From Sphaerolaimus hirsutus (lineage: Eukaryota > Nematoda > Chromadorea > Monhysterida > Sphaerolaimidae), in NCBI GenBank assembly GCA_964036195.1, contig OZ038457.1, positions 11,063,147-11,127,146 of the forward strand: a stretch of 64,000 bases of DNA, read 5' to 3'. A model generated the notes under the pieces. That model searched no databases. It saw only the letters and a list, made by a program, of their open reading frames with translations, and was not told where the DNA came from. This document shows, in pieces, positions 21,973-59,986 of the stretch. The first letter of the stretch is position 1, and every line of letters starts with the position of its first letter. Position numbers and translations under genes: made by a program.

Positions 21973-24900
21973 TCAAAAATGCAGCGCCGAACCTGATATG
22001 GACTGGCTCCAGCTGTACCGTCTGGACTTCAACTCGACGTCGGTGTCTTTGGGCGGCATGACGCCGGTCTTGAGGTACAGCGTCAAGCTCTGCTCCAAGC
22101 TGCGGTACACGTCCACGGGCATGATCGCGTCGTCTTGCATCATGCGCATCACCCACTTTTCGTTCATCGACTCGAAGAATTTGTAATCTGAGAAGGGTGG
22201 GTTTTTTACATCAAATTTATTTAGTATCCGTTAAATAATTATGTAGAGCGCAGTGCAGATTTGGTGTTTCGGTGAACTGGTGCGTGATAGAGAGCACATT
22301 CGGACATATCCGCTCCCAACACCACTCACAGTTTTGGCAATAATGGTTTTTAGATCGAATTTGAAAATAAAGTTTTTTTCACCATTGAAAACGTCAACCC
22401 CGCTGCACACAGGACAAAAGAATAGCCAAATAACAACGAACGAATAAACTCACTGTAAACAAGAAGATGGCCGGCCAGCTCGGCGGCGGCGGGGGAGAAG
22501 TTGACGCAGGGCTTGGCGCCGGGCACCGGCTTCCGCGGGAATATGTAGCACGTGACGTACAGAGGCTCGTGGGGTGGCGGCCGCTCCCTGGTGTAATGAC
22601 GGAGGGATAATGAAAGTGCCAGCGAATGCACTGGTGTTGCGCACTCCAGTTGACCGTTGCAAAAATGTCCAACTGATAAAGTGCGAAGAAACAAAAAAAC
22701 TCACAAATCGCGTGTAGTGATGTGAAAAGCGCCAGGAATTTTTTCGCCAGGCGCCAATGGCGCCACAGAAACTTAGCGCCAAGCGTCAATAGCGCCATGG
22801 CGTTTACTAGACCACGGCGCCAATGGCGCCAGAGGACAGTGGCGCCAAGCGCATTCACTTTACTCATTCATCAAGTATTTCACAATTGTATACATCCGCC
22901 CACCCCAGCATGAATTATCAACCCACCAGGGCGGCGTGGCTCTGCCATCATCCTCATTATCAGTGTTGCACTTGTCGCCATCGGTCTGGCTGGCGGAGCG
23001 TCTGCGGTGGTGCAGCAGGTGCGCCCGCCCCATGAAGATGTTGTGCGCCACGTTGTGCGAGTGCAGGTATTTGATTACCGATGTGATTGCCCTGCGTGTG
23101 ATGTGATGGTTGTCAGTTTCATTTTGGTATTTGGCTGGTGAACAATGCGTAGTGTATATCCTCGAAATATCCCATCAAAATGGCCACTATGAATCAATAA
23201 ACCTCCCTCGAAATACCCCCGTCTGGAGTGATGTACATGATGTATTCATTGCTGCCAGTTTGCACCGCAGCTACATATATTTATACCAGAATTAATTGTG
23301 TAGCGAGTGACGTAGTTGATACGTGCAAATAGATCATATTTTGACACATTTATTACCGGTTTTGACTAGTTCAAAGCATATTCTTTACTATGAATTTCAC
23401 AACAAGTTCTTTCAAAATACACCCCCTCGTTTGACTCCCCTCAAATTGTGCACTAAATATGAAAAAATAACACCGGGCGGTATTTCGAGCAAACACGGTA
23501 GTTGTAATTACACACGACTACAGGGGTCTCCTAGGGGGGGGCTGGGGGGGGGGGCTGCCCCCCCAAATCCGCCAGCTATCTATCTATCCCGGAGGCCGCT
23601 CAGCTATCTATCTATCTATCTATCCCGAGGCAAATTTTTTGCCTACTACCCCTAAAGACCCCCCCCCCCAAATCGCTCGGCTATCTATCTATCTGGAGTG
23701 GTTTTTGATAAATTTTGCCCCAATTTTCGCTCAAAATCACTAATTTTTGCACCTTTTTATAGTTTTTCACCTTCAAAATCGTGCTCTCCGGCTATATGCC
23801 TGTTTTTAGCCATTTTAAACCTACTTTTGGCCATTTTTAACTGATTATTAGCGATTTTTTCCCCTTTCGGCCTTCTATGCACTGAAAAAGCCTTTATATT
23901 TTGCCCCCGCGAGCCCCCCCCCCAGAAAATTTTTTCAGCTATCTATCCCTCCGGAGGAGCGATTTGCTATCTATCCAGCCCCCGCGAGGGCATTAACCTT
24001 GGAGACCCCTGCTCGACTCACTCGACGAATCTTGTCAAATCTTCTCTGAGGAGCAACTGGACTACGTAAGCCGGACAGTACCACTCGTCTGGCGCGTCGA
24101 TCACATTTACCAATCCGTGTATAGGTCGCACGCGCTGAAATCAAACGACAGCGTCGGTTTTCAAATAGACGTGATTAGGGTTGGAAAAAAAACGTTTTTT
24201 TAAACTCGATGTTTAAAAAAAACAACGTTTTTTTTATAAAAAAACGTTTTTTTTAAATAAAAAACGTCTTTTTTAAAGCTCCCAGATATGACCTTGTGTC
24301 AACATATATAGGTATATCAGACAGTGGCAATACTCTGTGATGTTATATATGACCATATGTCTGTGGAGCCATGGGATAGCATTATAAGTGGTGATTTGTG
24401 TCAAAAATATCCATTTTTCGTCGACTTATCGTCCGTATATAGCCTTATAGTCGAATGTTCGTGACTTCAGGTAAAGTTTGGCACGGAATAGTGATGAAAC
24501 AAGGTTATAAAAGGAGGTTGTTACTTTGGGAGTGAAGTTACACACTGTGGAGGTACATGGACATGGTACGTGCACATTACCTCAATATCATAAACTACAG
24601 CAACATATCACGGCTTATTAACCCATGGTAGCACATAGAAATGGATACTTTGATACTAAAAATGCCACAAAACCAATGAAAACAACCACCAATGTCAATT
24701 TGTGTGAAATTGCGCGCTTGCACGCAAAATTTTTGCAAAATACCTAGTGCTTAGTATAGTCGGCAGACATGATATTATATAGGTTTGGTCCACTTATGTT
24801 TCGCTTCGCTGAGCGTCAATGAAATTCAACATCTTACTGAACAGCGAAGTGCGATACATCTTAAATACGGTAGAAAAACGGTGCACAGTGGGTCGTAAAT

Positions 24901-27900
24901 ATGTCAATATGTATAGTCGACGGACATATCATTCTACAAAATTGGAAAGTTATATTTTGTTCTTGTAGAGCAAACGAGAAAGGAATTTAGTAAAAAAGAA
25001 AATATAAAGATAGTAAGAAGGAAAATAAAAATGTGCTGTTCTTTACGCACTCGTTTACTCCAATTTTTGTGCCGATAGGTGCTGCAAATTTTTGATTATA
25101 CGTTTACCTACGTTTAATCTAATTCATATTTAGAAAAGTTACACGCTATCGATTCATTTTGACGAAAACTTGTTACGTTCAAAATTTTGAATTCAGAAAA
25201 CGTTCCCGCTTTGTATTTATTCAGATCCAGACAACGCTTGGATGGCATCATGCCAAAAAACTCAACTACACTTTGACGGGGGTTTGAATTGTGCGGGCAC
25301 AATTGAATAGTTTCATTCCGTATATGCGTAAGCACGAGTCACCCAAACAGAGTTCTACGGGTTGGATACAGCGTGCATGATATGACATCATGCAACTCAT
25401 TGTATAGTATCATGTCTGCCGAGTATACTAAAAATTTCGGCCGATGTTTTTTTATAAAGAAAAACACATTTCGGACGTCATGTTTTTGAAAAAAAACCTT
25501 TTTTTTTAAAAAACGTTTAAAAAAAACATCGGCCAACCCTAGACGTGATGTGAAGCGTGTTTGTATTCAGTCGACAAGTTCTCGGGCAACCCGAAAAACA
25601 AATGTGTCCGACAAACAAAATGCCATACCAAAATAGGCAGCGCGCAACCAACCGCCTTGGTAATAGGACTGGTGTAGGGGTAAAAGAGCATGTGGAAGTG
25701 CAGGTGGTTGACACTGGCGAACGCCATCAACGAGTTGTACAGCAAGTGCAGTCTGGGGTTGCGGCACAGCAGCATTATGTCGGCCATTAGTCGCACCGCA
25801 TCACGGTTCATCACCTGCGGTGCGCCAGCCAAATTGAATGGAAAATTAAAGTGATTGCGTTCATTGACACACAAGTGGTTTTATTATTTCATAATTACGA
25901 GACGAGCAGAGGTTACCAGTGAAAGGCCTTTAGAAAAAGAGGGGATCGTTGTTTACAATTGATAGTATTTATCTTACCGTACCGTACTACCTAAAATAAT
26001 TCGTAACGACAACAATGTTCTCAAAATCTAACCACCTTAGTCCCAATGGCCCCTTAGTCTGGAATTAGAAGTTAGTCTTGGAACCACGCAAACAAAGTAC
26101 AAACGGTAGAAGAGGAATCCATTCAACGTCCCAAAAAGTGTGAAATTCTGTGCAGTGTCAGCAATGTTTCTGCAATCACATACTCCACAAGTACCTACGC
26201 TATATACATGATAAATACAATGTGACACATACGTATAACCGTATTAGTAGTGGACCATCCGGCGTATTACCGTATCTACAAAAGTTCCTGTGCGTACGGC
26301 CATAAATAGTGGCTAAAAATACCATTACCAAACCTGATGCAGGCATCTGTTGATGCTGGGAATGACGAGACAGTGGTTACGCTCGATCGGACTCGAATTG
26401 ACCAGAACCATGTGCCTGTCGATCGTGTCGCCAACCCGACTGTCCGAGCACCGCAAATCGAACAGGATCTGACAAATGATTCTGGCACGTTTCCAAGAGA
26501 TTTGAAAGTTTTGAAAGGTGTTTAGAAATGAACCAACCTCCTTTTGCCTGATCTTGTTGTAATTGAATCTGCGACTGTCGAACGGTTCACGCAGACTTCT
26601 GAAGGGCAGCGGCCGCCGACGCAGCACGCCGCGTTCCACGTTGAGCTGCGAATTGCGGAAGTTGAAAGGGGGTGTACGAAATCGGACATACCGTCTATCC
26701 TCGAAAAAGTCCCCCCTCGACAAACTCCCCTTTGTTAAGCGAGTGAGGAAAAAGCAACCCGTCCCCTCGAATAACTCCCCCATAGGAAAGACGTCATATT
26801 TAGTTTATGAAGAATGTCTTCTGTCTTCTGTATAATAAATATACGTAAGTATTAGGTTGGAAAGAAAGTTCTGTCAGTTCTTGGATTGTTGGGTTTGCTG
26901 GTCCGGCTTCGTTTCTAGAAACTGACATAACTTTTTTTCCAACCTAATATATATTCTGCCATTGGTGCTCATAAATATAGATTTTATTGCTTCAATTGTC
27001 GAATTTGTATACCAACTTATGATTTATGTAACTTATTTTACCCCATTTACACAGTAAATTCATTACTCATTTTTCGAAGAATTCAGACAGAAAAATAATT
27101 TCTCCCCTCGAAAAAATTCAGTCTAAAAAATCTGACAAAAAACAACTCCCCTGGGGAGTTATTCGAGGGTATACGGTAGCTTAAAAAAATTCAGCCACCT
27201 ACTTGTGCAGTGAAGCCATAGTGGCCGGGCAGTAACTTGTACATCAGGTTCAAGTCATACTTGACGGCCTTCTGTTTCTGCATGGCGCTCCACCGCTTTG
27301 CGACTTCTTTCTCAAACTGCAAAAAACGAGCGTTGTAACATGTGAAGTGATAAAAATGTGCCTTAAAAAACCACGAGCCTACCTTTGTATCGTCATTTGC
27401 CCAGGCACAGGAGCAGGCGTCCAGCCCGCCAGATTTATTGCAGATGGCCACATTGAATTCCTCCGTTGCATAGTGGTAGGCTGGCGTCGCCGTGTTCTGG
27501 GTGGGGTGGGGGATATAGCAGGGCTCGTTAGGGGTCTCCTAAATTTTGACCCCCGGGGGTTGGATAGATAGCGAATCGCTCCTATGGGGCGGTACATAGC
27601 TGAACAATTATTTTTTGGGGGGGGGGGGGGGCGAGGTTGCGTGGCTACCCTATAGAGGATTTCTCAAGGTGTAGAAGGAAGAAAACGGTGGAAATCGCTA
27701 AAAAAGGTAATAAGCAACATGAAGTAGTGAATGATAACCGCGCGATTGGGGTGGGGGGGGGCGTTCACAGGATAACAGCCAAAAAATTCCTCCAGGATAA
27801 ATGAATAGGTGAGCGCCCTCCAGGACAGATAGATTTCGCTCAACACACAAATCTGACACCCAGGTGTAACAATATAACCCACTAAACCACCCAACCCCAC

Positions 27901-30900
27901 CTTCTGGTCCTCCGCCCCATAAGCCAGCGTGCCCATAATATCCGAATACCTGCCGTCACCCCTCTTGTCCAAATTGCTCTGGCCCCTCACTGCAGCCGAG
28001 GGGGTCGGCTCTTTGTGGCTAGACTTCCTCACTTCCAGCTGCCGCTCGTAGCCGGGCGAGCGCGACCGGTCGCGTCGGATTGGCGGAGGGGTGTAGCTGG
28101 ATTGGGGGGGGGGGGGTTGATGGCAGTGTGAGAGTGTGGGGGTTATTTGAGGGACAGGGTGGTCGGATTTAAAGCGGTGGGTGGATGTTAAGGGCAGTGC
28201 GATGAATGCAGTTGGCAATTATGAAGGCTTTTGGTGTCACTGAAGGGTGATTGAGCTTGATTTTCTGATCAATATTATCAGTATTCCGACCAATATCAAA
28301 GTGAAATATCGTGACAGTAAATCAGAGTTGCCTAAATAATCACTTACTCAACCTTGAAAATAAGAAATATAAAATGCCTACAACGAACAAGCTTCACTAA
28401 TTCAGCAAGGTCTGGATAAAACAGCAGATACATCCGGAACCAAGAAGTCACGGTTTCGTTTCAGAAATGGAAAACACAAATATTTACAGAGAAACAGGTG
28501 ATAAGAGACTAGTAGAAATAGTGATGGAAACCTTTTTTCAACATCATGAAAACTTCGAGCATTGTGTGGATCCCACTTGGGGTTGGGTCCTTTGAGGGGT
28601 GGGGAGGTTGTGATAAGTTCGGGGTATACTAATATTCAAAAAGTTTGATTTAATTTAAAAAAATTTTTTTGCAAAAATTCCCCAATTTTTAGTTATTGCA
28701 CATGCCCCGACACCCTATGTTCACGCTGAGCAAAATCTGGGCGATGTTGCTCCTTTCCCATTGTATATTTACCAGAGGAAAAATTGAAGAAAAAAATTCG
28801 TTATCCAGCTGTGGGGGCACCGCCATACTGAACGCCATTCCCACAGCTTGCATATGGGGTGCATGAGATTAATTAAAAATTTTATGAGATCATGTTCCAA
28901 AGTATATTTGTCACCAGTTTATGTGATATCTAACCAATGTGCTTCCACACACGTCCAGTGTGAAACAACACTCTCAATGTATTAACCTCCTCACATAACC
29001 TATACTCTTACATGCCCAATTGATCTTGAAGTCACAAACATTCGAGAAAAAGCGATATACGCGACTAGTAGTCAACATAAAATTTAGTCCTTCGATAAAA
29101 TCACCACTTATAATGCTGTCAAAACGGCTCTTCAGCCATTGCATGGCTATATCTAAAAATCAGAATGTAGTGCAACTTGTCTGATTTACCTGTAGTTTAC
29201 TCATGAGGTACGTTCCTTGTGTCCTACAGCTTATTAATGCCTGCAAGAATTCAGGAAGTAAAAGGAAACTACACCATCAAATGTGGAGCAATAATCATAA
29301 AAACAACGACCATGAATTTCTCCGTGTGAGTAGCCAGTGGTTTTTGCAAAATTCATATAAAAATATCTGCTGGCGGTTTAGCATTGTAAGAGTAGCTTCA
29401 AACAGCGGGCGATCCCTAAGCAGAAATAGAAATCATGGATAGTTTCAAGCATCACAGCATCTAAGGATTGCTTACGCAATTATCAAGGTATAAACAAGCC
29501 AATTAAGTAAAGGAAACGCCAATTAAGTAAGGGAATTAGAAAACTCACCACTTCTCAGGGTGAGAACGGTTGAAGTGAACGGTGCACTTTGAAGAGCCCC
29601 TTAGCTATCTGTGTTCTCTCCGTTTTGCCGTCTATCACATAGGCAACGCTTGGGAAGTATGTAGGGGCGTTGGGAAGTAAGCGCCAGGTGCCAGTGCGAA
29701 CATGGGACCCAATTCAAACGCGCATTTATNNNNNNNNNNNNNNNNNNNNNNNNNNNNNNNNNNNNNNNNNNNNNNNNNNNNNNNNNNNNNNNNNNNNNNN
29801 NNNNNNNNNNNNNNNNNNNNNNNNNNNNNNNNNNNNNNNNNNNNNNNNNNNNNNNNNNNNNNNNNNNNNNNNNNNNNNNNNNNNNNNNNNNNNNNNNNNN
29901 NNNNNNNNNNNNNNNNNNNNNNNNNNNNNACACTAATGTGGTTGACAATGTGAAATAAGCATGAAATATCCTCTAAAAAATATCTTATCCGACCTAAAAC
30001 TGCCCACCACACAAACCCCTCCCCCAAGTGGGTGACAAAAAAATCACTTTTTACAACTTTTTCATTAGACACTTGAACTGCTGGTTTACAATGATTTATA
30101 GAGGAGGGTTAAAGGTATCAAATTGTGTAAAAAACCTTACCTCAAAAATGCCTTCATAAGAAAATTTGCTGGGGGTGAATTTCAAATTGTAAAAATAACA
30201 TCATTGCAGGAACAAAAATAGGCAAAATTTATAATTTTAAATTTACCCCCAGCAAATTTTCTTATGAAGGCATTTTTGAGGTAAGGTTTTTTACACAATT
30301 TGATACCTTTAACCCTCCTCTATAAATCATTGTAAACCAGCAGTTCAAGTGTCTAATGAAAAAGTTGTAAAAAGTGATTTTTTTGTCACCCACTTGGGGG
30401 GAGGGGTTTGTGTGGTGGGCAGTTTGAGGTCAGATAAGATATTTTTTAGAGGATATTTCATGCTTATTTCACATTGTCAACCACATTAGTGTTAAAACAA
30501 CACAAAAGTGTTCATTTTTTGAAATTCAATTGGATGCTGGACTTGTGTGTAGGGTTCAAACGGGATTGACTTTTCGGGATCGGGATCGGGATCGGGATTC
30601 ACTTTTTGAGATTTCGGGATCGGGATCGGGATTGGGGTTTCGGGATCGGGATCGGGATCGGGATTGGTTTTTTTGAGATTTCGGGATCGGGATCGGGATC
30701 GGGATTGGCCGGGATTGGGGTCACGGGATCGGGATTGGGATTGGCATTTTTCCGGGATCGGGATTGGGTTCTAGGGATAGAGATTTTGGCCATTTTTCTG
30801 GCATTCACAGTTGTTCATAAAGGTCTCAAAACACTGTTGGATGCCAGAAAAGTGGCATAAAATTGACACTTGGGGTTTGCATCCACTTTTTTGCATGCAA

Positions 30901-32865
30901 AAACGTCATTATTTCACTTTTTTTTATTTCCACAAAATTTTCCGGGATCGGGATCCCGGACTTGGGAGTTTCTCGGGATCGGGATCGGGATTTGAAAATT
31001 TTCGGGATCGGGATCGGGATTGGTATTTATGGATTTCGGGATCGGGATCGGGATCGGGATTGGGGTTTCGGGATCGGGATCGGGATCGGGACTGGTAAAT
31101 CCCGGAATTTCACGGGATCCGGGATCGGGATCGGGATCCCGTTTGAACCCTAACAGTAACAGTTGGACAGTAACATTTTAATAAATTTTGAACTTTGCAC
31201 CCCACACTGTGGTGAGTTGCTAAAGACCGCCTGGCCAGTGTATAGAAGGGGAGGGGTGTTGGCAACACATCCCCAAAATTGTAGATTTATACCCCTCCCA
31301 CAGGTGGAGGTACGGCACCCGCAGTGAAAGAAATCAGTGGGGGCCGGACCTGTGTGGGACACTAAAAAAGCTGCAAAATTTTTTTGCACTCGGCGACCCA
31401 CCCTGTAGAGGGTCGCCGCGACCCCTTCAATTCATGTGAAGTAGAGGGGGTTGCGCCAATATCTACCCCAAGTTTTAGCTTCTGGCGCGTCCTAGAACTG
31501 TAGATAGGACGGCAGAAGTAAAATAAAAAATTGGGGGCCGGACTTGATCGGGAAGGTGTTTATGTATATTTACATATAAGTGATTTTGGTGCCAGTGCCA
31601 ACGCCAACGCCAACGCCAATCGCGCCACGGCGTGGGCCCCATGAATGGCGCTATTTCATCACCATTTAGGTAAAATTTTAGAGGGGGGGGGGGGTTGAGC
31701 CCCCCTCGTTCGCCGGCCTCCGTAAACAAGCAGCCCCCCTCCGCTCAAAAATCCTGGATCCCTGAACTGATTGATTACCTGCGGCTAGGATATACCCCCA
31801 TTGCTTTAATTAACAATTAATTGTAAATCTTTTTAATCTGATCTTTACTGTCCCGATAATAGTTATTTGTGGGTCACTTCAACCGACTGAAAAGCCTAAA
31901 ACACATCCACTTAAAGTACCTTATAAATGTACGCGTTTATGTATTTACCGCTAAAATATAAAAACACGCGCTAAGGAAGCGGATATTCATTCCTCCAGCC
32001 TTGAGCAACATAATTACGGGAAAGGGCGATGACAAACTGAATAAGTAATGAGACGCAACACATCTGCCTCGACTCGAGCGAGCTGAAGCGCTAAACGAAA
32101 GTAGAATCAAACAAGAAAGCGCCATGCAAACTTCCATGCACTTAGCTCATTAGTTTCTTTCGTGGCCGGCCGTATTATTTTGATGAATTAATTAGTATTA
32201 AGCAGGATGCACGCATTAAAAGGCAACAGATACTAAATGTGAGGAGAAAAGCGAACCGGTGCAACGGAAATCGTCCCAAAGCACATGAAATGACAGGCTG
32301 GGAATTATCAATTATTACGTATTTACTCGTGTATTTATCAATGACCAAAAAGTTCAACAACATGGCAATTTACAGCGGGGATATTATCCGCCATCAACGA
32401 CGAGGCGATTGAGCCATGTGGCGCTAGCGCCAAAAAGTGTGCTCTGGCTAGGGTTGGTCGGCTAGGGGGGGGGGGTATTTCGACCTGGCTAGGGGGTATT
32501 TCGAGGAGGGGGGGGGGTATTTCGAGGGGGAATTTCGAGAAAATACAGTATAATACATTGTATACTGTGCGTTTGCGCTACGAAATTTTTTGCCAGTTTT
32601 TTATTAAAACGCTTGCCAACCCTAGCCGTAGCGCTACTTCTTCTGATAGCGCTACTGAAACTTTTGGTAACGCCACACCGCCAATGGCGTCAACGCCATA
32701 AAACCCAACACCTCCCCAGTCACTTTGGCTCACTATAATATCATCCAACCCTCACCTGTGCTCAAACAGAATCTTTCTAAATCTATCCATTTCCATCGCC
32801 GATGGCGACGTCGCCAGGTGGTCCACAGTCAAACTGCTGCCCGCTTTTCCGACTGGCATTTTCAT
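21973..32865 (-). CDS. GDPGP1: GDP-D-glucose phosphorylase 1 (HIT/GalT-like)
   Basis: Cytosolic enzyme that phosphorolyses GDP-D-glucose to GDP and glucose 1-phosphate, a metabolite-repair role known for the family. Exons (minus): 32865-32756, 28096-27901, 27496-27383, 27316-27203, 26645-26538, 26468-26334, 25814-25653, 24134-24022, 23091-22927, 22587-22454, 22187-21973. Phases close; TGA stop; 521 aa against about 385 in human. Landmarks: LLPGHYGFTAQ joined to LNVERGVLRRRP, FNYNKIRQKE, ILVNSSP-type strand, ASVNHLHFH (residues 293-300; the HxHxH catalytic signature), VAHNIFMGRA, AAELAGHL. The first exon is joined only by phase and lies across a gap; the second encodes an Arg/Ser-rich disordered segment. 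From 27496 on, homology is clear. An Asp/Asn-rich insert (DGDKCNTDNEDDGR) follows the AHNIF strand. Confidence 0.9.
22715..22855. mobile_element. GGCGCC-word element
   Basis: Left end TAGTGATGTGAAAAGCGCCA, then GGCGCCAATGGCGCC words. The right end near CATTCACTT is less clear. It lies in GDPGP1 intron 22588-22926. Confidence 0.6.
23153..23500. mobile_element. T1 element
   Basis: GTATATCCTCGAAATATCCC to TATTTCGAGCAAACACGGTA; decayed ends, with CCCCCTC/GGGCGG subterminal parts. Confidence 0.6.
23521..24011. mobile_element. CAGGGGTCTCC foldback abutting a GDPGP1 splice donor
   Basis: Ends CAGGGGTCTCCTAGG and CTTGGAGACCCCTG. CTATCTATCTATCCCGAGG-type repeats occur inside. Flanks CACGACTA (23513-23520) and CTCGACTC (24012-24019) match at 6 of 8, consistent with a decayed hAT duplication. 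The right flank overlaps the donor GTGAGT of the exon ending at 24022. Confidence 0.65.
24022..24134 (-). other. GDPGP1: GDPGP1 exon 8 (short, no Met)
   Basis: Acceptor TGATTTCAG, then RVRPIHGLVNVIDAPDEWYC, PAYVVQLLLREDL and donor GTGAGT, phases 0 and 2. It fills the family segment between the HxHxH strand and the AHNIF strand. It is easy to miss because it is only 113 nt. Confidence 0.85.
24176..25541. mobile_element. hAT-type element with AAACGTTT-word arms, perfect 8-bp TSD
   Basis: Ends TAGGGTTGGAAAAAAAACG and the complement of TAGGGTTGGCCGATGTTTTT. Flanking 24168-24175 and 25542-25549 are both GACGTGAT. Arms are runs of AAAAAACGTTTTTT. The core carries GCGCGCTTGCACGCAAAATT (24713) and the dispersed segment around GGAGCCATGGGATAGC (24366). 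No transposase frame. It sits in GDPGP1 intron 24135-25652. Confidence 0.9.
26690..27178. mobile_element. T1 element filling a GDPGP1 intron
   Basis: ACCGTCTATCCTCGAAAAAG to GTTATTCGAGGGTATACGGTA. It covers 489 of the 557 bp of intron 26646-27202 and contains the mariner MITE at 26852. Confidence 0.75.
26852..26947. mobile_element. 96-bp mariner-type MITE
   Basis: TIRs of about 28 bp (TTAGGTTGGAAAGAAAGTTC, mirrored as AACTTTTTTTCCAACCTAA) flanked by TA on both sides, as for mariner. Confidence 0.85.
27530..27690 (-). mobile_element. Truncated CTATCTATCC-type repeat
   Basis: It starts TAGGGGTCTCCTAAATTTTG and contains GGATAGATAGCGAATCGCTC; one end only. It lies in the GDPGP1 intron between 27497 and 27900. 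Confidence 0.5.
28900..29230. repeat. Dispersed repeat R6 (core of word elements)
   Basis: It shares AATGTGCTTCCACACACGTC, CTTGAAGTCACAAACATTCG and ATCACCACTTATAATGCT with copies at 24300-24500 (inverted), 36010-36250 and 51430-51745. Confidence 0.65.
29730..29929. other. Assembly gap (200 N)
   Basis: Exactly 200 unknown bases at the edge of a palindrome, where assembly would be expected to fail. An exon of GDPGP1 could be hidden. Confidence 0.99.
29930..30494. mobile_element. Palindromic foldback beside the gap
   Basis: The left arm from ACACTAATGTGGTTGACAAT is repeated inverted, ending ATTGTCAACCACATTAGTGT, centred near 30212. Inner landmarks (GCTGGTTTACAATGATTTAT, CCTTCATAAGAAAATTTGCT) are homologous to the inner arms of 36949-38115. 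The arms probably continue into the gap. Confidence 0.85.
30550..31152. mobile_element. GGGATC-word element (TAGGGTTCAAACGGGAT ends)
   Basis: Arms of GGGATCGGGATCGGGATT words (30575-30780 and 30945-31140) flank a 160-bp core. Ends TAGGGTTCAAACGGGAT and ATCCCGTTTGAACCCTA are inverted. No matching 8-bp flanks. Shorter relatives lie at 44039-44192 and 45190-45365. Confidence 0.8.
31190..31565. mobile_element. Half copy of the GGCCGGAC palindrome
   Basis: GGGGGCCGGACCTGTGTGGG and GGGGGCCGGACTTGATCGGG in the order seen in the right arm of 36949-38115, with GGTGTTTA at the end. Confidence 0.6.
32449..32624. mobile_element. TAGGGTTGG-ended short element with G-runs
   Basis: TAGGGTTGGTCGGCTAGGG and GCTTGCCAACCCTA are inverted ends. 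Inside are T1-like GGGGGTATTTCGAG units. No matching flanking octamers. Confidence 0.5.
32756..32865 (-). other. GDPGP1: Candidate first coding exon of GDPGP1
   Basis: ATG at 32865 opens MKMPVGKAGSSLTVDHLA and continues to FRKILFEH before the donor GTGAGG, phase 2, which matches the acceptor at 28096. No homology supports it; the alternative is a start in an exon hidden in the gap 29730-29929. Confidence 0.5.
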
Positions 32866-47300: not shown

Positions 47301-50300
47301 GCACCCCCTGGGGACCACCCCAACATGGCACCCCCTTAGGACCCCCCTGCAAAAAAAAATATAGCACCCCCCTGAGGACCACCAAAAAATGGCACCCCTG
47401 GTGACCACCCAAAAAATGGCACCCTATGTGGACCCCCTTGAAATGGCACCCCCATATGTACCTCCAGAAAATGGCACCCCCTGGAGACCCCCCAAAAATG
47501 GCACCCCATGGGGACCCCCTCTAAATCCTGTAAACACAGCCCCTAGTTTGGAAACTCCTGTAAACTCAGCCCCTAATTTGGAAACTCCTATAAACTCAGC
47601 CCCTAACTTGCAAACTCTCGTAAACTCAGCCCCTAACTTGCAAACTCCCATAAACTCAGCCACTTATTTGTAAGCTCCCATAAACTCAGCCTCTAATTTG
47701 AAAACTCCCATAAACTCAGCCCCCAATTTTGGAAACTCCTGTAAACTCAACCCATAATTTGGAAACTGCTGTAAACTCAGCCCTAATTTGGATACTCCAA
47801 TAAACTCAGCCCCTAATTTAGAAACTCCCATAAACTCAGCCCCTAATTTGGAAACTCCCTTAAAATCAGCCCCTAATTTGGAAACTCCCATAAACTCAGC
47901 CCCTAATTTGGAAACTCCCGTAAACTCATTTTCAGGTTTATGGTAATGTAGTGTGAAAATGGTATGAATATTTCAAAAAATCACTATCATCAATCCACAA
48001 ATGCATCAATTCACAATTTTCAATTTTTTAGCCCCAAGGGTTAGACTTAAAAGGTTATGGTAATGTAGAGTAGAAATGGAGTGCACATCTCAAATCACTG
48101 CAATAAAAGACCCACAAACGCATCATTTCACAAATTGAAAGTTTTTGTGCCCAGGGGTTCATTATCAGGGTTTTAGTAATGTGGTGTCAAAATGGAGTGC
48201 ATATTTGAAATCGCTACAATCAGAAACCCACAAACACATCATTTTATGATTTGAAAATTTTTGGCCCTGGGGGTTCATTTTCAGGGTTATGGTAATGTAG
48301 TGTCAAAATGAAGTGCATATTTCAAATCAAGGCAATCAAAAAGCCACAAATGCATCATTTCACAATTTCTAATTTATTAGCCCCATGGGTTCAATTTAAG
48401 GCTTACAGTAATGTAGAGTTGAAATTGAGTCATTTCAAATCAGTGCAATAAGAAACCTGCAAAATGCATCATTTTACAAATAGAAATTTTTGGGTCTAGG
48501 GGTTCAATTTCAGAGTTTTAGTAATGTAGTGTCAAAATGGAGTGCATATTTGAAATCGCTACAATCAGAAACCCACAAATGCATCATTTTATGATTTGAA
48601 AGTTTTTGGCTTAGGGGGTTCATTTTTATGGTTATGGTAATGTAGTGTCAAAATGAAGTGCATATTTCAAATGAGTGCAATCAGAAACCTGAAAATGAAT
48701 GATTTCACAAATTGAAAGTTTTTGGCTCCAGAGGTTCATTTTCAGGGTTATGGTTATGTAGTTTTCAGGGTTATGTAGTGTCAAAATGGATTGCATATTT
48801 CAAATCAGTGCAATTAGAAACCCACATCGAATCATTTCACAATTTCTAATTTTTTAAGCCCTGGGCATATTTGAAATAGCTACACTCTGAAACCCACAAA
48901 TCCATCATTTTATGGTTTGAAAGTTTTTGGCCCAGGGGGTTCATTTTTAGGGTTATGGTAATGTAGTGTCAAAATGAAGTGCATATTTCAAATGAGTGCT
49001 ATCAGAAACCCGAAAATGCATCATTTCTCAAATTGAAAGTATTTGGCCCCATGGGTTCATTTTTAGGGTTATGGTAATGTAGTGTCAAAATGGAGTGCAT
49101 ATATCAAATTGGTGCAATCATAGACCCAAATTTGAAATCAGTGCAATCAGAAACCCAAAAATGAATGATTTCACAAATTGAAAGTTTTTGGCTCCAGAGG
49201 TTCATTTTCAGGGTTATGGTTATGTAGTTTTCAGGGTTATGTAGTGTCAAAACGGAGTGCATATTTCAAATCAGTGCAATTAGAAACCCACATTGAATCA
49301 TTTCACAATTTCAAATTTTTTAAGCCCTGGGCATATTTGAAATCACTACACTCAGAAACTCACAAATCCATCATTTTATGATTTGAAAGTTTTTGGCCCA
49401 GGGGGTTCATTTTAGGGTTATGGTAATGTAGTGTCAAAATGAAGTGCATATTTCAGATGAGTGCAATCAGAAACCCGAAAATGCATCATTTCTCAAATTG
49501 AAAGTATTTAACCCCATGGGTCCATTTTGAGGGTTATGGTAATGTAGTGTCAAAATGGAGTGCATATATCAAATCAGTGCAATCAGAAACCCAAATTTGA
49601 AATCAGTGCAATCAGAAACCCAAAAATGCATCATTTCACAAATTGAAATTTTTTGGCCCCAGTGGTTCATTTTCAGGGTTATGGTAATGTAGTGTCAAAA
49701 TGAAGTGCATATTTCAAATGAGTGCAATCAGAAACCTGAAAATGCATCATTTCTCAAATTGAAAGTATTTGGCCCCAGTGGTTCATTTTCAGGGTTATGG
49801 TAATGTAGTGTCAAAATGGAGTGCATTATATATCAAATCAGTGCAATTAGAAACCCACAATGCATCATTTCACAATTTGAAAATTTTGGCCCCATTTTGG
49901 GTTCAATTTCAGGGTTATTGTAATGTACTGTCAGAATGGAGTGCATATTTCAAATCATTGTAATCAGTAACCCACAAATGCATTATATCACAATTTATAT
50001 TTTTTAGCCCCGGGGGCCTCACTTAAGGATTATGGTAATGTTATTGTTAACTCCCATAAACTCAGCCCCTAATTTGGCAAACACCCATCAACTCAACTCC
50101 CATAAACTCAGCCTCTAATTTTTAAACTTGTGTCAACAGCCCCTTATCTTTAAACTTCTGTCAACTCAACCCTAATTTATCAACACCCATCAACTCAACC
50201 CTGAATTGTAAACTCAGCCCCTAAAAACTCAAGTCAACCCCCTATACATGTGCAATTGCATTCTTGGGAAGCAACTTTGCCATCTACTAACTAGGGTTCA

Positions 50301-52429
50301 AACGATATCACTTTTCGATATCGATATTCGATATTCGATATTTTTTCAAAATTTTCGATATCGATATTCGATATTCGATATTTTTTCAAAATTTTCGATA
50401 TCGATATTCGATATTCGATAGTTTTTCGAAATTTTCGATATCGATATTCGATACGATATGGACCCTCGATATCGATATTCGATATTCGATACTAAAAAAT
50501 GGTCGATATTCGATATCGATATTTTTGATATTTTCGATATTCGATATTTAGCTTTTGGTATAGCAAGGCATATTTCAAGCAGCATGTTGTATTTTCATAT
50601 GGTTGCAAACATGGTTGATTATCTCTTACTGATAAGTACAATTGATTTTAACAAGGTTTACAATGGTCAGAATGAAAAAATCGAAGAAAAAACATGACAA
50701 ATCAAATTGTATCAGACAAACAAAAATTGGTAGATATAACAATTCATACTTATAACCCTATTGTTTAAGGGCATGTTGCAAAAAAGCAGCATATCAGCAT
50801 TTTCTGGCTTCAAATATGAGGTAGGTAGTTCAGTAGGTATGTGGCCAAACCAAATACAAGAAATGTGGAGTAAGCACTCCAACAAAGATAACATTAAATA
50901 CTTTACTTTTACTCATCAACTTAGATACTATAAGCAAATCAAATTAATCACAAATATCTCAAAACAAAAATAATAACTTAATTAAGGACATTATACAGGT
51001 TCGATTTATCGAAAATATGGTCGATATTCGATATCGATATTCGATATTTTTTCAAAATTTTCGATATCGATATTCGATATTCGATATTTTTTCAAAATTT
51101 TCGATATCGATATTCGATATTCGATATTTTTTCAAAATTTTCGATATCGATATTCGATATTCGATATTAAAAAATGGTCGATATCCGATATTCGATATTC
51201 GATACGATATATCGTTTGAACCCTACTACTAACCCTGTTTGTCAAGATTGTGGATCGTGTTTGTAAAGGGCATTTGTACTAATAAATAGTGACTGCATTG
51301 TGTGCAAAAACACACACGAATCGGGCACAATGAGGCCTGTGATTGTGCCTCCTATCTTTTGCATTGAAGCATCCTTAGCGTGCAGTTCTTTCGAAATTGT
51401 ATAGGTGGAGATAAGCCATGACATGTTAGTGTAGTATATAATATCCAGTCAATGTGCCTCCATATAGTTGTACAGTGTGAAATATCACTTAAAATGAATT
51501 AGCCTTCTATTGTTACCTAATTTAAACACTATTCCATGGCCAACTTCACTTGAAGTCACAAACATTCAACAAAAGCTGATATATGTATTAAGTCAACATA
51601 AAACAGATATTTTTGACAGAAATCACCACTTATAACGATATCCCATGGCTCCACAGCCATTCTGTGACTATATATAACACCACAAATTGCTGTCACCTGT
51701 CTGATATACCTGTTATACTCATAACCATATCTGAGAGCTTTTAAAAAACCCACTAAAAACAGTTTTTCCATCCCTAGTGCGCAGACAGATATCTCTAACC
51801 TGTTCCCACATTTTGATTCCTGCCTCCAATGAAAAAAATACTCCATTCAATTCAGCGCCGCTGCTGTCTCTTCTTTCTAGTCCATCGACTCCGCACAGGT
51901 GCCTTGGTCGATTCCGAAACGTTCAGAACGTTCGAACGCTGAACGCAAATTTCAGCGTGCAAAAACGTTCGAACGCTGAACGCAAATTTCAGCGTGTGGT
52001 GCGGCAATGACCCCCCACACACTATTTGACATTTACATCAAATGTCAACTGGTTCGTATCCCAATTCCAAGCTTGCATTTGAACTTCGTTCGTTGGCTTG
52101 TCAGCAAACTTTGAATTGGGATCGGAACCAGTTGAAATTTGGTATCGATGTCAACTAGTGTGTCTGGGCCCATTGAGCCTTGATATTTAGAACACATCGC
52201 TTCCAACCAAACAAAAACCTCGCACTTCGCAGAGGTGGCGCGCACGCGTCTGCGCGAGCCCGGCAACAAGTACACGGGCCTGTTCCAGTGCTGGCGCCTG
52301 GTCGTCAGGGAGGAGGGCGTGGCCGCGCTGTACAGGGGCCTGTTCGTGCATCTGCTGCGCACGGTGCCCAACACGGCCATCACCATGGCCACCTACGAGC
52401 TGGTGCTGCACGTGCTACTGCCCGGATGA
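41382..52429 (+). CDS. SLC25A36: Mitochondrial pyrimidine-nucleotide carrier (SLC25A33/36, Rim2 type)
   Basis: Inner-mitochondrial-membrane carrier; in this family it exchanges pyrimidine nucleotides for mitochondrial DNA/RNA synthesis. Exons: 41382-41419, 41699-41868, 42876-43032, 43390-43568, 43868-44013, 44493-44601, 44866-45066, 52233-52429; phases close to 398 aa and TGA. All three carrier signatures are present: PLEVVKVRL (residue 25), PVWLVKTRL (191; Trp in the signature is typical of this subfamily) and PHEVARTRL (332). Other landmarks: [68 protein letters not shown]. Hydrophilic inserts follow repeat 1 (residues about 35-105) and precede repeat 3 (about 267-310, Ser/Asp/Asn-rich), longer than in human. 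The ATG at 41382 gives [13 protein letters not shown], matching the family N-terminus. Confidence 0.92.
42207..42275 (+). other. SLC25A36: Candidate cassette exon of the carrier gene
   Basis: Acceptor TATTTTTCAG, 69 nt, donor GTTGGC. Phase 1 in and phase 1 out, so inclusion adds 23 residues ([17 protein letters not shown] within) without a frameshift, in the variable insert after repeat 1. No homology; optional status is inferred. Confidence 0.4.
42434..42682 (+). mobile_element. T2 element
   Basis: TATACTCCGGTTACTTTACA to TGTTCGCCGAGTATA, colinear with 3272-3511. It lies in the carrier intron before exon 3. Confidence 0.8.
43054..43165. mobile_element. GGCGCC-word sequence
   Basis: TAGTGGTGGAGAAGCGCCGG then GGCGCCATGGCGCGG words, in carrier intron 43033-43389. 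The right end is lost in a G-run and ATCTATCT repeat. Confidence 0.5.
44039..44192. mobile_element. Short GGGATC-word element
   Basis: TGGGGTTCAAACGCGATCCC to CTCGATCCCGTTTGAACCCTA. CGATCCCGA words fill it. It starts 25 bp after the donor of carrier exon 5. Confidence 0.65.
45190..45365. repeat. Decayed GGGATC-word arm
   Basis: GATCCCGAATCCC-type words without a clear TAGGGTTCAAAC end; next to the palindrome at 45400. Confidence 0.45.
45400..45728. mobile_element. 330-bp near-perfect palindrome
   Basis: AACCTATGGTCACTTGAGTT and its complement bound it. Arms pair through AGGTAGCCCTAACATTTG and CACCCCCCAGCTGTACCCCC, with a loop of only about 14 bp near 45560. Confidence 0.85.
46069..46480 (+). 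mobile_element. TACCG-word element, left part
   Basis: It begins TAGGGTGGCAGAATTTACCG, then repeated TACCGTACCGTACCGCATTT words to 46225. The core GCGCGCAAGCGCGCGAATTTC (46311) matches the cores of 24176 and 57670 elements, followed by R6-like GTGCTTCAAGATGCTC. No right end is identified before the MITE at 46498. Confidence 0.6.
46498..46966. mobile_element. 469-bp MITE
   Basis: TIRs of about 60 bp: AGCAGGATTCTCTCTGACCT with TTGTGGTTCTCTACAATTAA, mirrored at the right end. AT-rich non-coding interior. Confidence 0.8.
46990..47530. repeat. Minisatellite, about 27-bp unit (AAAATGGCACCCCCTGGGGA)
   Basis: About 20 diverged tandem units of AAAATGGCACCCCCTGGGGA plus CCCCCC. It produces spurious Gly/Pro-rich open frames on both strands. 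Confidence 0.9.
47531..47935. repeat. Minisatellite, about 30-bp unit (AAACTCAGCCCCTAATTTGG)
   Basis: About 13 tandem units of TAAACTCAGCCCCTAATTTG plus GAAACTCCCA. A short second block recurs at 50048-50240. Confidence 0.9.
47936..50047. repeat. Satellite array, roughly 110-125-bp unit
   Basis: About 17 units built from GGTTATGGTAATGTAGTGTC, AAAATGGAGTGCATATTTCA, AATCAGTGCAATCAGAAACC and GCATCATTTCACAAATTGAA. Some units are compound, suggesting higher-order duplication (48710-48980 resembles 49190-49450). Confidence 0.9.
50292..51225. mobile_element. hAT-type element with CGATATCG-word arms, perfect 8-bp TSD
   Basis: Ends TAGGGTTCAAACGATATC and ATATCGTTTGAACCCTA. Flanks 50284-50291 and 51226-51233 are both CTACTAAC. 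Arms (50315-50555, 51005-51210) are TTCGATATCGATATTCGATA words. The 450-bp AT-rich core has no recognised frame. It has the same terminal 12 bp as the GGGATC element at 30550. Confidence 0.92.
51430..51776. repeat. R6 repeat with a word-type terminus
   Basis: CAATGTGCCTCCATATAGTT, CACCACTTATAACGATATCC and GCTCCACAGCC are the R6 order. It ends AAAACAGTTTTTCCATCCCTA, a TAGGGATGG terminus with G/T words, so it is the inner and right part of a relative of 24176-25541. Confidence 0.65.
51915..51995. repeat. GAACGTTCGAACGCTGAAC word cluster
   Basis: CGTTCGAACGCTGAACGCAA occurs twice with self-complementary AACGTT and TTCGAA. Short; no ends defined. Confidence 0.45.
52009..52171. mobile_element. 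MITE, second copy of the 17428 family
   Basis: CCCCCCACACACTATTTGAC to GATGTCAACTAGTGTGTCTG, with AACTGGTTC/GAACCAGTTG inner pairs as in 17428-17590. Confidence 0.8.
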
Positions 52430-55515: not shown

Positions 55516-55858
55516 CCGTAAATCCCCGAAAAAGTCCCCGGGGGAGTTATTTTTTCGTCAGAATTTTTTGAGGGGGGAGTTAATCGAGAGGAGGAGTTTT
55601 CGTCAGAATATTAGGTACATTGCATGATCAAAAAATTGTATGAATGGGGTTAAATTCAACCATTTTTAATGCAATGGAATCAATGCTGGTGAACAAAGCT
55701 GCAAACGAATACGTTCAGTTTAATGTACACAGATTACATTAACAGGTTTTTTTTACATGTACGCCGTTCCTACCCATAAAGTAGGGGGAGTTAATCGAGG
55801 GGGAGTTATTTTTTCCTCAGTCAGCTAACAGGAGGGAGTTATTCGAGAGGGGGGCTTG
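55516..55858. mobile_element. T1-like element, right end decayed
   Basis: ACCGTAAATCCCCGAAAAAG, then GGGGGGAGTTAATCGAG units; the right side ends in GGAGTTATTCGAGAGGGG. Confidence 0.5.
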
Positions 55859-56254
55859 TTCGTTTTTTTTTACGTTGACCCAGGTATTTTCAAAGTATTT
55901 TACGCTTTTAGTATAAATACTCAAATTTTCAAAAATGTATTTTTACTTACGTTTTCCAAAAATACTAGCATTCTAACAACTCTGCCTCAAGCTGACCATC
56001 TTTCAAAAATTGCTCTGATGAATCATGAATTGAATTTCTAGCAAATAAATGTTTTACGTTTGTTTACTGTAGATAGCAATCCGCGTGCAGACCCCAGACT
56101 ACGCCGTATTGTCACATTATGGTGCAATGTTGTTATTGACGCTTTTGCCTGAATTTATTTTCACACGGTTTATTTTGTTTTCACTCAGATGCTGCTCAAA
56201 GGCTTGTCTATTAATTATCTACACACTTTTTGAGCTGCTTGCTCGCTAGTAAAA

Positions 56255-59200
56255 ATGCAGATGGACAAGGAAATACAAAGACTACTGATTTCGGTCAAAC
56301 CGAGAAGGCCGACGGATTTCGAAAGTGCCAACGATGCGAATTTAGTTTACCCTGGCATTTATATAAGCTCGTGGTTAGTGCCTTTTGCATTCATTGGCGA
56401 TTTGCTGTCCGTTTGGTGTTGCCTCTTGTCCGGATTTTCTTCTCTTCCTTTGATGTAAGGAACCGCTGAGTCTGGTGTGGAAATAATGACTTTCCGGTAC
56501 CCGTATATGTATACCGTAATTCTTCGAAATACCCCAGGTTTTTTCGAGCTGAGGAAAAATTTCCACTGCAAAAATAAACCCTCTGGGGGTATTTCGAGGA
56601 AATATGGTAAATATAAAGAAACATCAAAACATTACACTCGCTTGTCAATTGCTTGTGACTACCATTATCACCTATCTAATCGGTGCGCAGTTACCACCTA
56701 TTTATGATATCACCACACTTATTGATTGATCTATCATAAGATTACCGCTTTTGACTGCATTCCTAGTCTGTATGTGCGGGAACAAAAACTCAACTGATCA
56801 GGACCCTGGCCCGCAACCTGCGGCAGCTGAAGTCTGCGGGCGTGACGCACGTGCTCAACTGCGCTGAGGGTTCTGGTTTCGGACAGTGCAGCGCCGCCGC
56901 TCAACGGGTTAGCGGGTGTCTCGGAAATTGATTTATCGTCACAAAACTCCATATTTGCTTGAACAATCCCCCCTCGAATAGTTCCCCCCTGATGTATATG
57001 ATCAATATGTTGTGTTCAATTTGGACAAAAACTGCATTTTATTTGTTAATCAAACATATTTTGTGGAATGAGTGGAGAAACATATGCTTGAAAATTTTGA
57101 CGAAATAAAAATCCCTCCCCTTGAACATTCCCCCTCGCATAATTCCCCCTCAAAGAAGTCTGAGGGAAGAATAATTCCCCAGGGGGATTATTCAAGTAAA
57201 TACGGTATTCAAGAATAATGTGCCTGGGTGTAGAAAAAGTTTCACGATTTTGTGAAAAAAATCGTTTGTTCAATCGATGTACCTATGCTATATCACAGGT
57301 GGAGTATGAAAAGTCTGGCATAAAGTATTTAGGAATCGCTGCCAATGACGTCATGGGATACGATTTGAAGCAGCACTTCGAGCAAACGACCGCGTTCATA
57401 AAGGAAGCTAGGACAGATGAGAAAAGTTGGTTTGGATGAAAAACGTTGTTAGCTTGACACCCCACTTTTAAGCAATTTTCACGTATTTAAAAATAATAGC
57501 ATGAAATCTCATTAAAAAATTGCAATATTGCTAGCATTTTGAGCAAATTTGTCGAATTTTGAAAGCAGGTAAGTTGAGAAATAAATAGTTTTTTTCCGTT
57601 CCATACCGGACCACAATTTTCATCGCGTATAAAATTTGCCTTTTTATATATGAGGTCCTTAATTGTGAATAGGGTTGGCAAGCTACTTTTTTAAGCGATT
57701 TAAAAAAAAATTAAGATAAAAAAAAATCGCAGCCCCTGCACCGATTTTTTTTTAATCGCTGGGGAAAAATTTGGTATTCACGCACTAGGTAAAATGCGAA
57801 AATTTTGCGCGCATGCGCGCAATTTCATGCAAGCAATCCACCAGTTGCTTTTTTCATGGCTTTTACAAGCAATTTGGTGGTTTAGCACCCATTTCTGTGT
57901 GCTGTTAAGCATGTAAGATAGGCTGTGAATCATTGGGGGGAAGTATACATTGTTTTGCTATGTGTTTTCATATCAAACATGAATGGAAATGCATCCATGT
58001 TCACTTCAACAATGATTTTTATTGTGTTCTCAGCAAAAACATGCAATTTCTGCAAACAAAATTGCAATTGGTCGATGACATTTTGTTCACGCAGCAAATA
58101 CAACAATTTTATAACGTTTTAACTTCAAAATAACTTACTTTTAAGCTTTTACAACAGCTTTTAAGCTCTACAGTACTTATATTACCACAGAAAGAATAAC
58201 TGTGCACTGCCTATCAACTTACATGTCTTTTATTACCCTCAGAGGCGATTTTTTAGAGAAATGGGACTAACTTTGACCGCAGCGATTTTTATTTAAAAAA
58301 TCGATTTTTTTTTAAATCGGGGTCGGTAAAAAAATTTTTTGGGGTCGATTTTTTTCCAACCCTAATTGTGAAATTGCATTTTTGGCTAAGAGTGAACACT
58401 ATTTCTCACACGGAAAAGAGTGTATCTTATCGGATTTCGAGCACACATCTTCGACATCAAAACGTTCCATTATCTTGTTTCTATTCAAATCTTGTCATTT
58501 TTCAGACATCGTGTTGGTGCACTGCTACATGGGTTATTCGAGATCTGCCGCCATTGTGCTTGCCTACCTAATGATCGACAAAGGTCAGTCTTGTTAGCTT
58601 ATCAAAGTAAAGTTTGTGTACTCCGCAGACCGCACGGTATGCATTTTTCTGAATCCATCATAACGTCATTTTTAATCAAATCAAATTTGTTCAAAAAACG
58701 TTTCAGGAAAGAAACTTTTGGCGCTTTTACACAAACCCGCTTTTAAAATAGGTATTTTTCTTTTTTGTAGTAGTGCATGCAAAAGTATTTATCCTTCTAG
58801 TCCGTTATCGGCTATGACATAAGTAATTTTGGATGCATATTTTTTCGGTCCGTCGAGTAAATCGAAGTTTGCTACCGTTCCTATAAAGTAGTGATGGAAT
58901 GGCGCCATGGCGCTGGCGCCATTTGAGGGCGCCAAAGGGCGCCGCGCCATGGCGCCCTTGGCGCTTGGCGCCCTTTTTCTGTGGCGCCCTTGGCGCCTGG
59001 CGCCCACATTCTGAAAGGCGCCATATGGCGCCCTTGGCGCTTGGCGCCCTTTTTCCGTGGCGCCCTTGGCGCCTGGCGCCCTGCTTTGAAAGGGCGCCAA
59101 AAAGGCGCCACCAGCGTTTCAAGGCGAGTCCTGTGTAAATGAAAAAAAGCGCATCCGTGGATGATCTAAATTCACCAGAAAATGGACGAAGTGGTGTGAG

Positions 59201-59986
59201 TGGGTGGAAATCGTTCATCCAACGGTTGATCTGATGTGTCTGACGGATCAGAAGACAAGAATGATGGACCGTCCTGGTCCTACTAACAAAATCATAAATA
59301 AACGGATTCAAATCGTTGCAATTCGTTTTTGTCCATTTCAAGGAAACATTGATTGGAAAAGTCTATTTGAAGTGAATGGATTGTTGTCAGATGACAACTT
59401 CCATTGTGTTCGAATTCGTCATGTTTTTGTTCATTACAATTTGGTTGCTAGTTTTGTTTTTGTTCATTACATTCTGGTGAACGCGAATTATGAAGTAAAT
59501 GCGTATCCACGGTGCCCTAGCAACATGTTTTGCACTTGCAGGGTGTTGTAGGCACTTATTTATCCTGGCGCCCTATTTTCCAAATGGCGCCCTTGGCGCT
59601 TGGCGCCCTCTTTCCGTGGCGCCCCTGGCGCCTGGCGCCCACTTTCCGAATGGCGCCATGGCGCCCTTGGCGCCCTTTTTTCTGGCGCTTTTCCATCACT
59701 ACTATAAAGCAAGGAGTTATCCTAGCGGGGTGTGGGTGGTGAATGGAGCTTCCGGAATGGGAATGTAATTGGTGAACCGCTTCCGCCAACCGTAGAAGAT
59801 CGTGGATAATTCTGTGTGATACAGTGACATATCTGTGTCTTTCCGTTTTTAGGAATGACCTTGGGAGATGCCGTGAACACGGTCCGATCCAGCAGAGATG
59901 TTCGACCAAACAATGGCTTTATGAAACAGTTGACACAGTTAGAAAGTGAACTCGGTTATGCTCAAAAGCCTGCCGCTTCATTGTAA
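56255..59986 (+). CDS. Atypical dual-specificity protein phosphatase (DUSP3-like)
   Basis: Removes phosphate from Tyr and Ser/Thr of proteins; in this class (DUSP3/13/26) MAP kinases and STATs are typical targets. Exons: 56255-56373, 56802-56907, 57299-57425, 58506-58583, 59853-59986; phases 2,0,1,1 close to 187 aa and TAA. The P-loop HCYMGYSRS gives Cys124 and Arg130, and AAND gives the general acid Asp92. These are the numbers of human DUSP3 (185 aa), so the length is canonical. Landmarks: NLVYPGIYISSW, GVTHVLNCAEG, YEKSGIKYLGIAANDVMGYD, VRPNNGFMKQL. No targeting signal or extra domain, so a cytosolic/nuclear single-domain enzyme is expected. I cannot assign it to one vertebrate paralogue. 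Confidence 0.92.
56514..56609. mobile_element. Short T1 element (96 bp)
   Basis: ACCGTAATTCTTCGAAATAC to GTATTTCGAGGAAATATGGTA, in phosphatase intron 1. Confidence 0.7.
56960..57206. mobile_element. T1 element
   Basis: CTTGAACAATCCCCCCTCGA to GATTATTCAAGTAAATACGGTA. It fills most of phosphatase intron 2 (56908-57298). Confidence 0.65.
57670..58364. mobile_element. hAT-type element with ATCGATTT-word arms, perfect 8-bp TSD
   Basis: Ends TAGGGTTGGCAAGCTACT and TCGATTTTTTTCCAACCCTA. Flanks 57662-57669 and 58365-58372 are both ATTGTGAA. Arms carry A/T-runs with ATCG (TTTAAAAAAATCGATTT). The core contains GCACTAGGTA and TTTTGCGCGCATGCGCGCAA, homologous to the core of 24176-25541 in inverse orientation. 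It lies in phosphatase intron 3. Confidence 0.9.
58617..58860. mobile_element. T4 element, uninterrupted copy
   Basis: TGTACTCCGCAGACCGCACG to CGGTCCGTCGAGTA; colinear with the outer parts of 7229-8272 (CATAACGTCATTTTTAATCA, CGTTATCGGCTATGACATAA). Confidence 0.7.
58889..59701. mobile_element. hAT-type element with GGCGCC-word arms, perfect 8-bp TSD
   Basis: Ends TAGTGATGGAATGGCGCC and GGCGCTTTTCCATCACTA. Flanks 58881-58888 and 59702-59709 are both CTATAAAG. Arms (58903-59115, 59565-59690) are GGCGCCCTTGGCGCTTGGCG words. The 450-bp core (CGTCCTGGTCCTACTAAC, TTTTTGTTCATTACA) has no recognised gene. It lies in phosphatase intron 4. Confidence 0.92.

Follow-up and report, generated by a model that had tools for sequence, protein, structure and literature searches.

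Word arrays in the arms of hAT elements of a nematode differ in concert between lineages and probably change together with the transposase

hAT transposable elements are known to carry short subterminal repeats. In Ac/Ds of maize these repeats form arrays of a short word, AAACGG, to which the transposase binds, and we know of no sister arrays of Ac/Ds in which this word has been rewritten. Here we analyze comparable short-word arrays in the nematode Sphaerolaimus hirsutus, in a stretch of 64,000 nucleotides (contig OZ038457.1, positions 11,063,147 to 11,127,146; part of contig C13 in our numbering and hereafter called the window), where several hAT-type insertions carry arms built from one repeated word each, and in the 348 Mb of genome that were searched. 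In the open-licence literature no description was found of sister families whose entire repeat set had been rewritten, Repbase and most subscription papers lying outside this search; Repbase holds hAT consensus sequences of other animals with words such as CGATATCG, and parts of what is described below may be filed there.

According to the available part of the Hermes report, the BED finger of this transposase binds AAG(T/C), cooperatively at a quasi-palindrome, and the octamer reads several repeats at a time (PMC10368747). The elements ending in CAGAGTTG described here resemble this arrangement, in that the cooperative quasi-palindromic pair has a counterpart in an inverted word pair at their right ends and, by our own comparison, the AAGT and AAGC bound by Hermes recur within AAGTGTA and AAGCGTA; the Hermes repeats, however, are irregular and few of them are bound in the account given there (PMC10368747), whereas the present arms have a regular build and the variants AAGT and AAGC are split into separate families. 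For Herves, four copies of CGATTCAT are described as enough for binding and two variants as weakly bound, and the authors propose that differing binding sequences secure the specificity of each enzyme for its own transposon (PMC3143072, available part). The likeness lies in a short motif repeated at both ends, of which a tetramer is sufficient there and variants are weaker, but that part of the account concerns one element and one motif. In the goldfish element Tgf2, a 50-bp left-end probe is described that holds the 11-bp terminal inverted repeat (TIR) and five subterminal repeats, and the BED finger is needed for good binding (PMC4890040, available part). Tol2/Tgf2 share with the elements analyzed here an 8-bp target-site duplication (TSD) and a CAGAG-type terminus with adjoining short repeats; unlike the present case, the available part of that account deals with one element and no sister families with a rewritten repeat.

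Our main reading, to which we assign a probability of about 0.7, is that the genome holds hAT lineages whose word arrays are read by the BED finger and in which word and transposase change together. What was observed comprises the hAT membership of two families, words that are mostly uniform within a copy, equality of the two arms, a concerted difference between words on a common skeleton, and an association of word with transposase for two of the words.

In a random sample of 20 unselected 10-kb stretches (200 kb) scanned for TSDs, 22 word-armed elements were recognized by reading of the scan list, 21 of them with exact TSDs and one with a mismatch. Their termini were TAGGGTTGG, TAGGGTTCAAAC, TAGTGATG, TAGGGTGTCA, TAGGGCTCGAA and CAGAGTTG; elements ending in TAGTGATG carry the word GGCGCC (GGCACC in one sampled copy), and those ending in CAGAGTTG carry, on one and the same arm, GTGTAA, GCGTAA or ACGTAA (GT, GC and AC classes below). 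Further TSD-flanked elements, with ends TAGGGTTGGGAA and CAGGGGTCTCC, were noticed at L024:5308-5498 and L016:9296-9801.

Genome-wide, the CAGAGTTG arm pattern was found at 6210 places with up to three mismatches, and a 14-base stretch of it with an open word slot at 4599 places, the reversed control patterns giving 0 in both searches. Words were counted in the 100 left arms listed of these 4599 places, all on contig C1. Among them, 79 have one word three times (33 ACGTAA, 25 GCGTAA, 21 GTGTAA), compared to 9.8% expected for independent slots, and 14 have one word a single base off. Of the 6210 terminus places, 100 were listed, 83 entered and 72 matched to the slot list; in these 72 rows the CAAATACT skeleton is paired with ACGTAA in 27/27 cases, and the AAAATACC skeleton with both GCGTAA (25) and GTGTAA (16). 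The second family, which has the TAGGGTTCAAAC terminus present in the window and the words CGATAT, GGGATC and GGGACC, behaves like the CAGAGTTG family. Its pattern TAGGGTTCAAACG...TTTTCG occurs at 6079 places (control 0), and 90 of the 100 listed have the same word in both places read (GGGAT 55, GGGAC 23, ATAT 12); the remaining 10 include one clear switch, from GGGAT to GGACC. Twelve arms of this family were read; GGGATC and GGGACC elements have a common frame between the words, and the number of units varies. Free variation of words among the copies of one burst, which the original prediction for the window had named as the outcome that would speak against it, was thus not seen: words are few, mostly uniform per copy and equal across arms, though mixed copies exist.

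The equality of the arms was evaluated in the CAGAGTTG family, the right-arm pattern of which occurs at 3787 places (control 0). From the 100 listed of these, 85 were entered and 62 could be paired with a left arm in opposite orientation at most 3 kb away. In 55/62 pairs the majority word of the left arm is found at both right-arm word positions; in six pairs one right-arm word is changed by one base, which in two of the six produces GTGT in a GC element, and the one mismatched pair joins a neighbouring element, whose nearer partner agrees. The arms are only 57 bp apart in 4/62 pairs, and the middle parts of four compared elements differ by eye. A process confined to one array is therefore insufficient to account for this agreement.

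The extent of the concerted difference was determined by comparing 8 GT, 11 GC and 4 AC left arms, a difference being counted if at least 75% of each class showed it. Sixteen arms (L038-L053) had been chosen for pure first three words; L039, the terminus of which is mutated to CAGTGTTG next to GTGTAA words, and the mixed arm L021 are not among the 8 GT arms counted. GT and GC left arms differ in 7/7 words, always at word base 2, with 0/35 differences in the other word columns and 2/98 in the spacer columns (Fisher p 2e-10). Since the first three words had served to select 15 of the arms (7 GT, 8 GC), an independent test is confined to the four inner words; these conform except in L053 (one ACGTAA) and L041 (one GTTTAA), slots being deleted in L043 and L051. 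GC and AC left arms likewise differ in 7/7 words, at word base 1, and in 11/98 spacer columns. In the 3' arm, one GT copy differs from two GC copies in 8/8 words, reverse-oriented words included, while the other differences in the last 135 columns number 7 and 6 between GT and GC copies and 8 between the two GC copies. Conservation inside each class is higher for words than for spacers (0.994-0.996 versus 0.958-0.975 for GT and GC; 0.976 versus 0.893 for AC).

These data bear on a rival account in which tandem words expand and contract by slippage, each class being the burst of one founder and the word being meaningless to the enzyme. The classes do look recent (within-class identity averages 0.969 in GC and 0.980 in GT), and the varying unit number of TAGGGTTCAAAC copies is of the kind that slippage could still explain in tandem families. 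In the CAGAGTTG family, however, word positions are fixed, unique spacers lie between several of the words, and every word of the 5' and the 3' arm is changed at the same base; since slippage has no means of moving a change past a spacer or into the opposite arm, we regard this account as improbable.

A mutation bias, in which GCGTAA becomes GTGTAA through deamination of methylated CpG and selection plays no part, appears very improbable. It would fit the observation that the GC/GT difference lies at the C of a CpG and that odd words among those listed (GCATAA, ACATAA, ATGTAA) look like CpG decay. Such decay should yield TG and CA alike, yet there is no pure GCATAA class among the 100 listed arms; moreover, the CCGG of the same arm is retained in the 8 counted GT copies, in words of reverse orientation the difference falls on the opposite strand, GC copies have a reverse GTGTA site, a hint that GT was the earlier state, and the difference between GGGATC and CGATAT is left unexplained. 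Strand-specific deamination was also considered for the CAGAGTTG family and judged unlikely, along with slippage alone and CpG decay.

Separately from these comparisons, an inverted word pair (AAGTGTAAATACACTT) was seen to adjoin the CAGAGTTG right terminus at L022:3535-3564; it is also present in the aligned GCGTAA and ACGTAA copies.

The assignment to hAT was evaluated with the dimer-domain profile PF05699, for which 28 matches were listed and nine loci, holding 10 of these matches, were opened. The domain lies inside TSD-bounded elements of the TAGGGTGTCA type (L029, L030, L032) and the TAACGATGG type (L031). In the CAGAGTTG family, the ACGTAA element at 639-1904 of L034 contains the match at C7:9378601 (1.4e-10); the stretch L034:564-938 is not the dimer frame and had no domain match. 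In the TAGGGTTCAAAC family, the CGATAT elements of L036 (TSD with one mismatch) and L037 (one end seen) gave 5.3e-11 and 7.6e-12, respectively; L035 was also among the opened loci. Exact 8-bp TSDs in the CAGAGTTG family were recorded in L018, L022 (two), L027, L034 and at C3:40743-46748. This last copy (L033 with L075) is a 6.0-kb CAGAGTTG element with the exact TSD CCTTGGCG and probable introns; it carries PF05699 at 4.9e-17 and a split BED finger (zf-BED 4.3e-5, 23.9 bits versus a cut-off of 20.6, two exons joined at a guessed splice). A first BED exon also lies beside an ACGTAA right arm in L080. A genome-wide search with PF02892 gave 8 matches, none near a listed dimer match, and this poor yield may be due to a BED finger that is split by an intron, as in the C3 copy. 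Six of the eight BED-finger matches fall in a 23-kb cluster at C1:7466186-7488779, perhaps an array of transposase-derived host genes.

The transposase relics sort with the word for ACGTAA and GCGTAA. C-terminal relics that share 49-59% identity with the C3 copy were located in ACGTAA elements in 5/5 cases read (L034, L069, L070, L071, L074), and the arms of four other C-terminal relics (three at 90-94%, L072 at 54%) are of the type of the C3 copy itself. In total, eight AC-type relics all reside in ACGTAA elements: two BED exons (L080, L083), the five C-termini just named and a weak C-terminus in L018. Among the best 150 of 533 candidates retrieved with the L080 BED exon, one relative at 74% (L083) is next to an ACGTAA arm, and GCGTAA arms adjoin the four read at 42-61% (L081, L082, L084, and L085 by position). 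With a GC-type BED exon (best 150 of 808 candidates), 7/7 C1 loci within the range of the arm list are in GCGTAA elements, the query's own included; these seven are all the listed C1 matches below 14.1 Mb, two at 14.08 Mb being merged as one. A decayed second element of L034 (4379-4848), with a CAGTGTTG end, mixed words and a weak AC-type BED relic, was left out of the counts. In the fetched stretches of two BED lineages on C1 (L076-L079) and of the relic L073, no CAGAGTTG end was present. The predicted association of word with transposase lineage accordingly holds for ACGTAA versus GCGTAA relics; for GTGTAA no transposase was found among the matches read.

Such an association would equally be given by plain descent, in which arms and transposase diverged jointly as the lineages separated and words differ because everything does, with no code involved. 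The 11/98 spacer columns at which AC and GC differ, and the ACGTAA subfamily that tolerates one GCGTAA word, are in line with this. The GT/GC differences, by contrast, are at the 75% level nearly those of the words alone, and the words are the more conserved part within each class; plain descent is therefore unlikely in our view.

The reading of the arms as co-changing with their transposase is weakened by several observations. Mixed copies occur: five of the 100 listed left arms mix two or three class words (four of them among the 14 with a one-base change), 3/85 right arms mix GTGT and GCGT, and the CAGAGTTG arm from L021:8708 onwards has GTGTAA outside and GCGTAA/GCATAA inside and could represent an intermediate or a recombinant. 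A constant GCGTAA sixth word is found in four ACGTAA arms with transposase relics (L069, L070, L071, L074; 4/4), which indicates that a single site can differ stably; L053 has ACGTAA as its sixth word among GCGTAA words, and one reverse site remains GTGTA in GCGTAA elements. On the transposase side, L072 has a C3-type arm at 54% C-terminal identity, within the 49-59% of the ACGTAA relics, although its BED exon matches the C3 copy at 71% and thus groups with it; the relics are copies within few deletion-derivative subfamilies, so that their counts are not independent and reflect one or few events; and none of the listed matches that were read placed a transposase relic in an element of the GTGTAA class, in which the swap is cleanest. 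The BED-exon lineage at C13:26549061 has near-equal identity to AC (58%) and GC (59%), and the BED exons read comprise exon 1 for AC and GC, exon 2 being covered only in the C3 copy and in two lineages on C1. In Hermes, finally, mutation of inner putative sites did not strongly reduce activity, according to the available part of that report (PMC10368747), and selection on all 15 sites is hence not obvious.

With these points in mind, we suggest a model in which the arms would be arrays of predicted binding sites for the N-terminal BED zinc finger of hAT transposases, with one main word used by each lineage. The preference of the finger would shift by a base, and selection for transposition would then favour copies with more sites of the new word until nearly all match, the spacers remaining unchanged; in the CAGAGTTG family the rewriting would cover both arms, about 15 sites. 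Each word would thereby mark a lineage made up of an autonomous element and many short non-autonomous followers. That the BED finger reads the word, that selection drives the change and that the words are mutually exclusive are steps we infer. More tentatively, and with somewhat less than even confidence, one-base word changes that spread to nearly all sites may split hAT elements into mutually exclusive lines, the word acting as a swappable address that would let an autonomous element shed the non-autonomous copies feeding on its transposase. The puzzle behind this proposal is that each element has many sites, so one change in the protein would need many changes in the DNA. This genome offers thousands of sister-family copies differing most in the word, two hAT families, mixed copies as possible intermediates and transposase relics in place, which makes the question of co-change between transposase and binding site directly testable; genetic tools could also draw on its natural sets of transposon ends, which may not interfere with one another.

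The elements of the window itself are as follows (all on the forward strand, except the duplication, to which no strand applies).

24168..24175 (left copy) and 25542-25549 (right copy), no strand: TSD GACGTGAT of element A, exact match
24176..25541, forward: element A, hAT-type insertion of 1366 bp with a perfect TIR of 9 bp (TAGGGTTGG), TSD GACGTGAT and an arm word of the AAACGTTT type
24754..25428, forward: unrelated repeat nested within A, from about element bases 579-1253, TIR GTATA.TCGGCAGACATGATA, TA on each side
30550..31152, forward: element E, 603 bp, both ends TAGGGTTCAAACGGGAT, word GGGATC, 8-bp flanks unmatched
46069..46225, forward: element F, a single arm with a TAGGGTGGCAG end and TACCG words, inner limit set by eye
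50292..51225, forward: element B, 934 bp, TIR TAGGGTTCAAACGATAT of 17 bp, CGATAT in both arms, TSD CTACTAAC
57670..58364, forward: element C, 695 bp, TIR of 9 bp (TAGGGTTGG), word of the AATCGATT type, TSD ATTGTGAA
58889..59701, forward: element D, 813 bp, TIR of 11 bp (TAGTGATGGAA), word GGCGCC, TSD CTATAAAG

The four insertions predicted to have matching ends, perfect 8-bp duplications and arms of one word correspond to A, B, C and D and were confirmed, with exact TSDs in 4/4. Nine pairs combining an exact TSD with a TIR of at least 7 bp were found in the window, compared to 0, 2, 0, 0 and 2 in five mononucleotide shuffles. Because A contains the nested unrelated repeat, A proper is about 690 bp; the repeat, about 675 bp, was retrieved by genome search at 38 or more other places at 98-99%, where it occurs without A's arms. 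The two further members that had been proposed, GGGATC at 30550 and TACCG at 46069, fared less well: the ends of E match but its flanks, CTTGTGTG and ACAGTAAC, are unequal, so that it has no TSD, and for F, a single end, no partner was found with the one pattern tried, which matched only at 63133. The designation of the elements as hAT is borne out for the type of B, as for the CAGAGTTG type, by PF05699 inside TSD-bounded copies. For A, C and D it is based on the short TIR with an 8-bp TSD, further copies of these types being present in the random sample; no PF05699 match lay within such an element at the nine opened loci.

Aligned to each other, B and E have TAGGGTTCAAACG...ACTTTTCG... in common, with CGATAT in B where E has CGGGAT. 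This common skeleton suggests that the word changes rather than the frame around it, and prompted the search beyond the window. A and C, which have TAGGGTTGGAAAAAAA and TTTAAATAAAAA in common around differing words, are a weaker case with a partial skeleton.

Self-complementarity had been proposed for every arm word. It holds for the six words of the window, but as a general property of arm words it is wrong: arrays of GTGTAA, GCGTAA, CGGAAA and GCACC elsewhere in the genome contain no palindromic 4-mer, and a random 6-letter word has a 29% chance of containing one. When 6-bp palindromes were counted in the outer 250 bp of each side, with 200 shuffles per element, A (25; shuffle mean 10.2, maximum 20), B (31; 13.0, 24) and D (31; 7.6, 15) exceeded all shuffles, whereas C (14; 9.9, 19) and E (6; 5.4, 13) remained within the shuffle range.

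Two minor features of the window were noticed by eye. Beside F, positions 46500-46570 and 46910-46970 form an inverted repeat (GGATTCTCTC...TGTAGAG) that is perhaps another mobile element, and positions 58500-58600 and 59850-59900, between which element D lies, resemble exons of a dual-specificity phosphatase.

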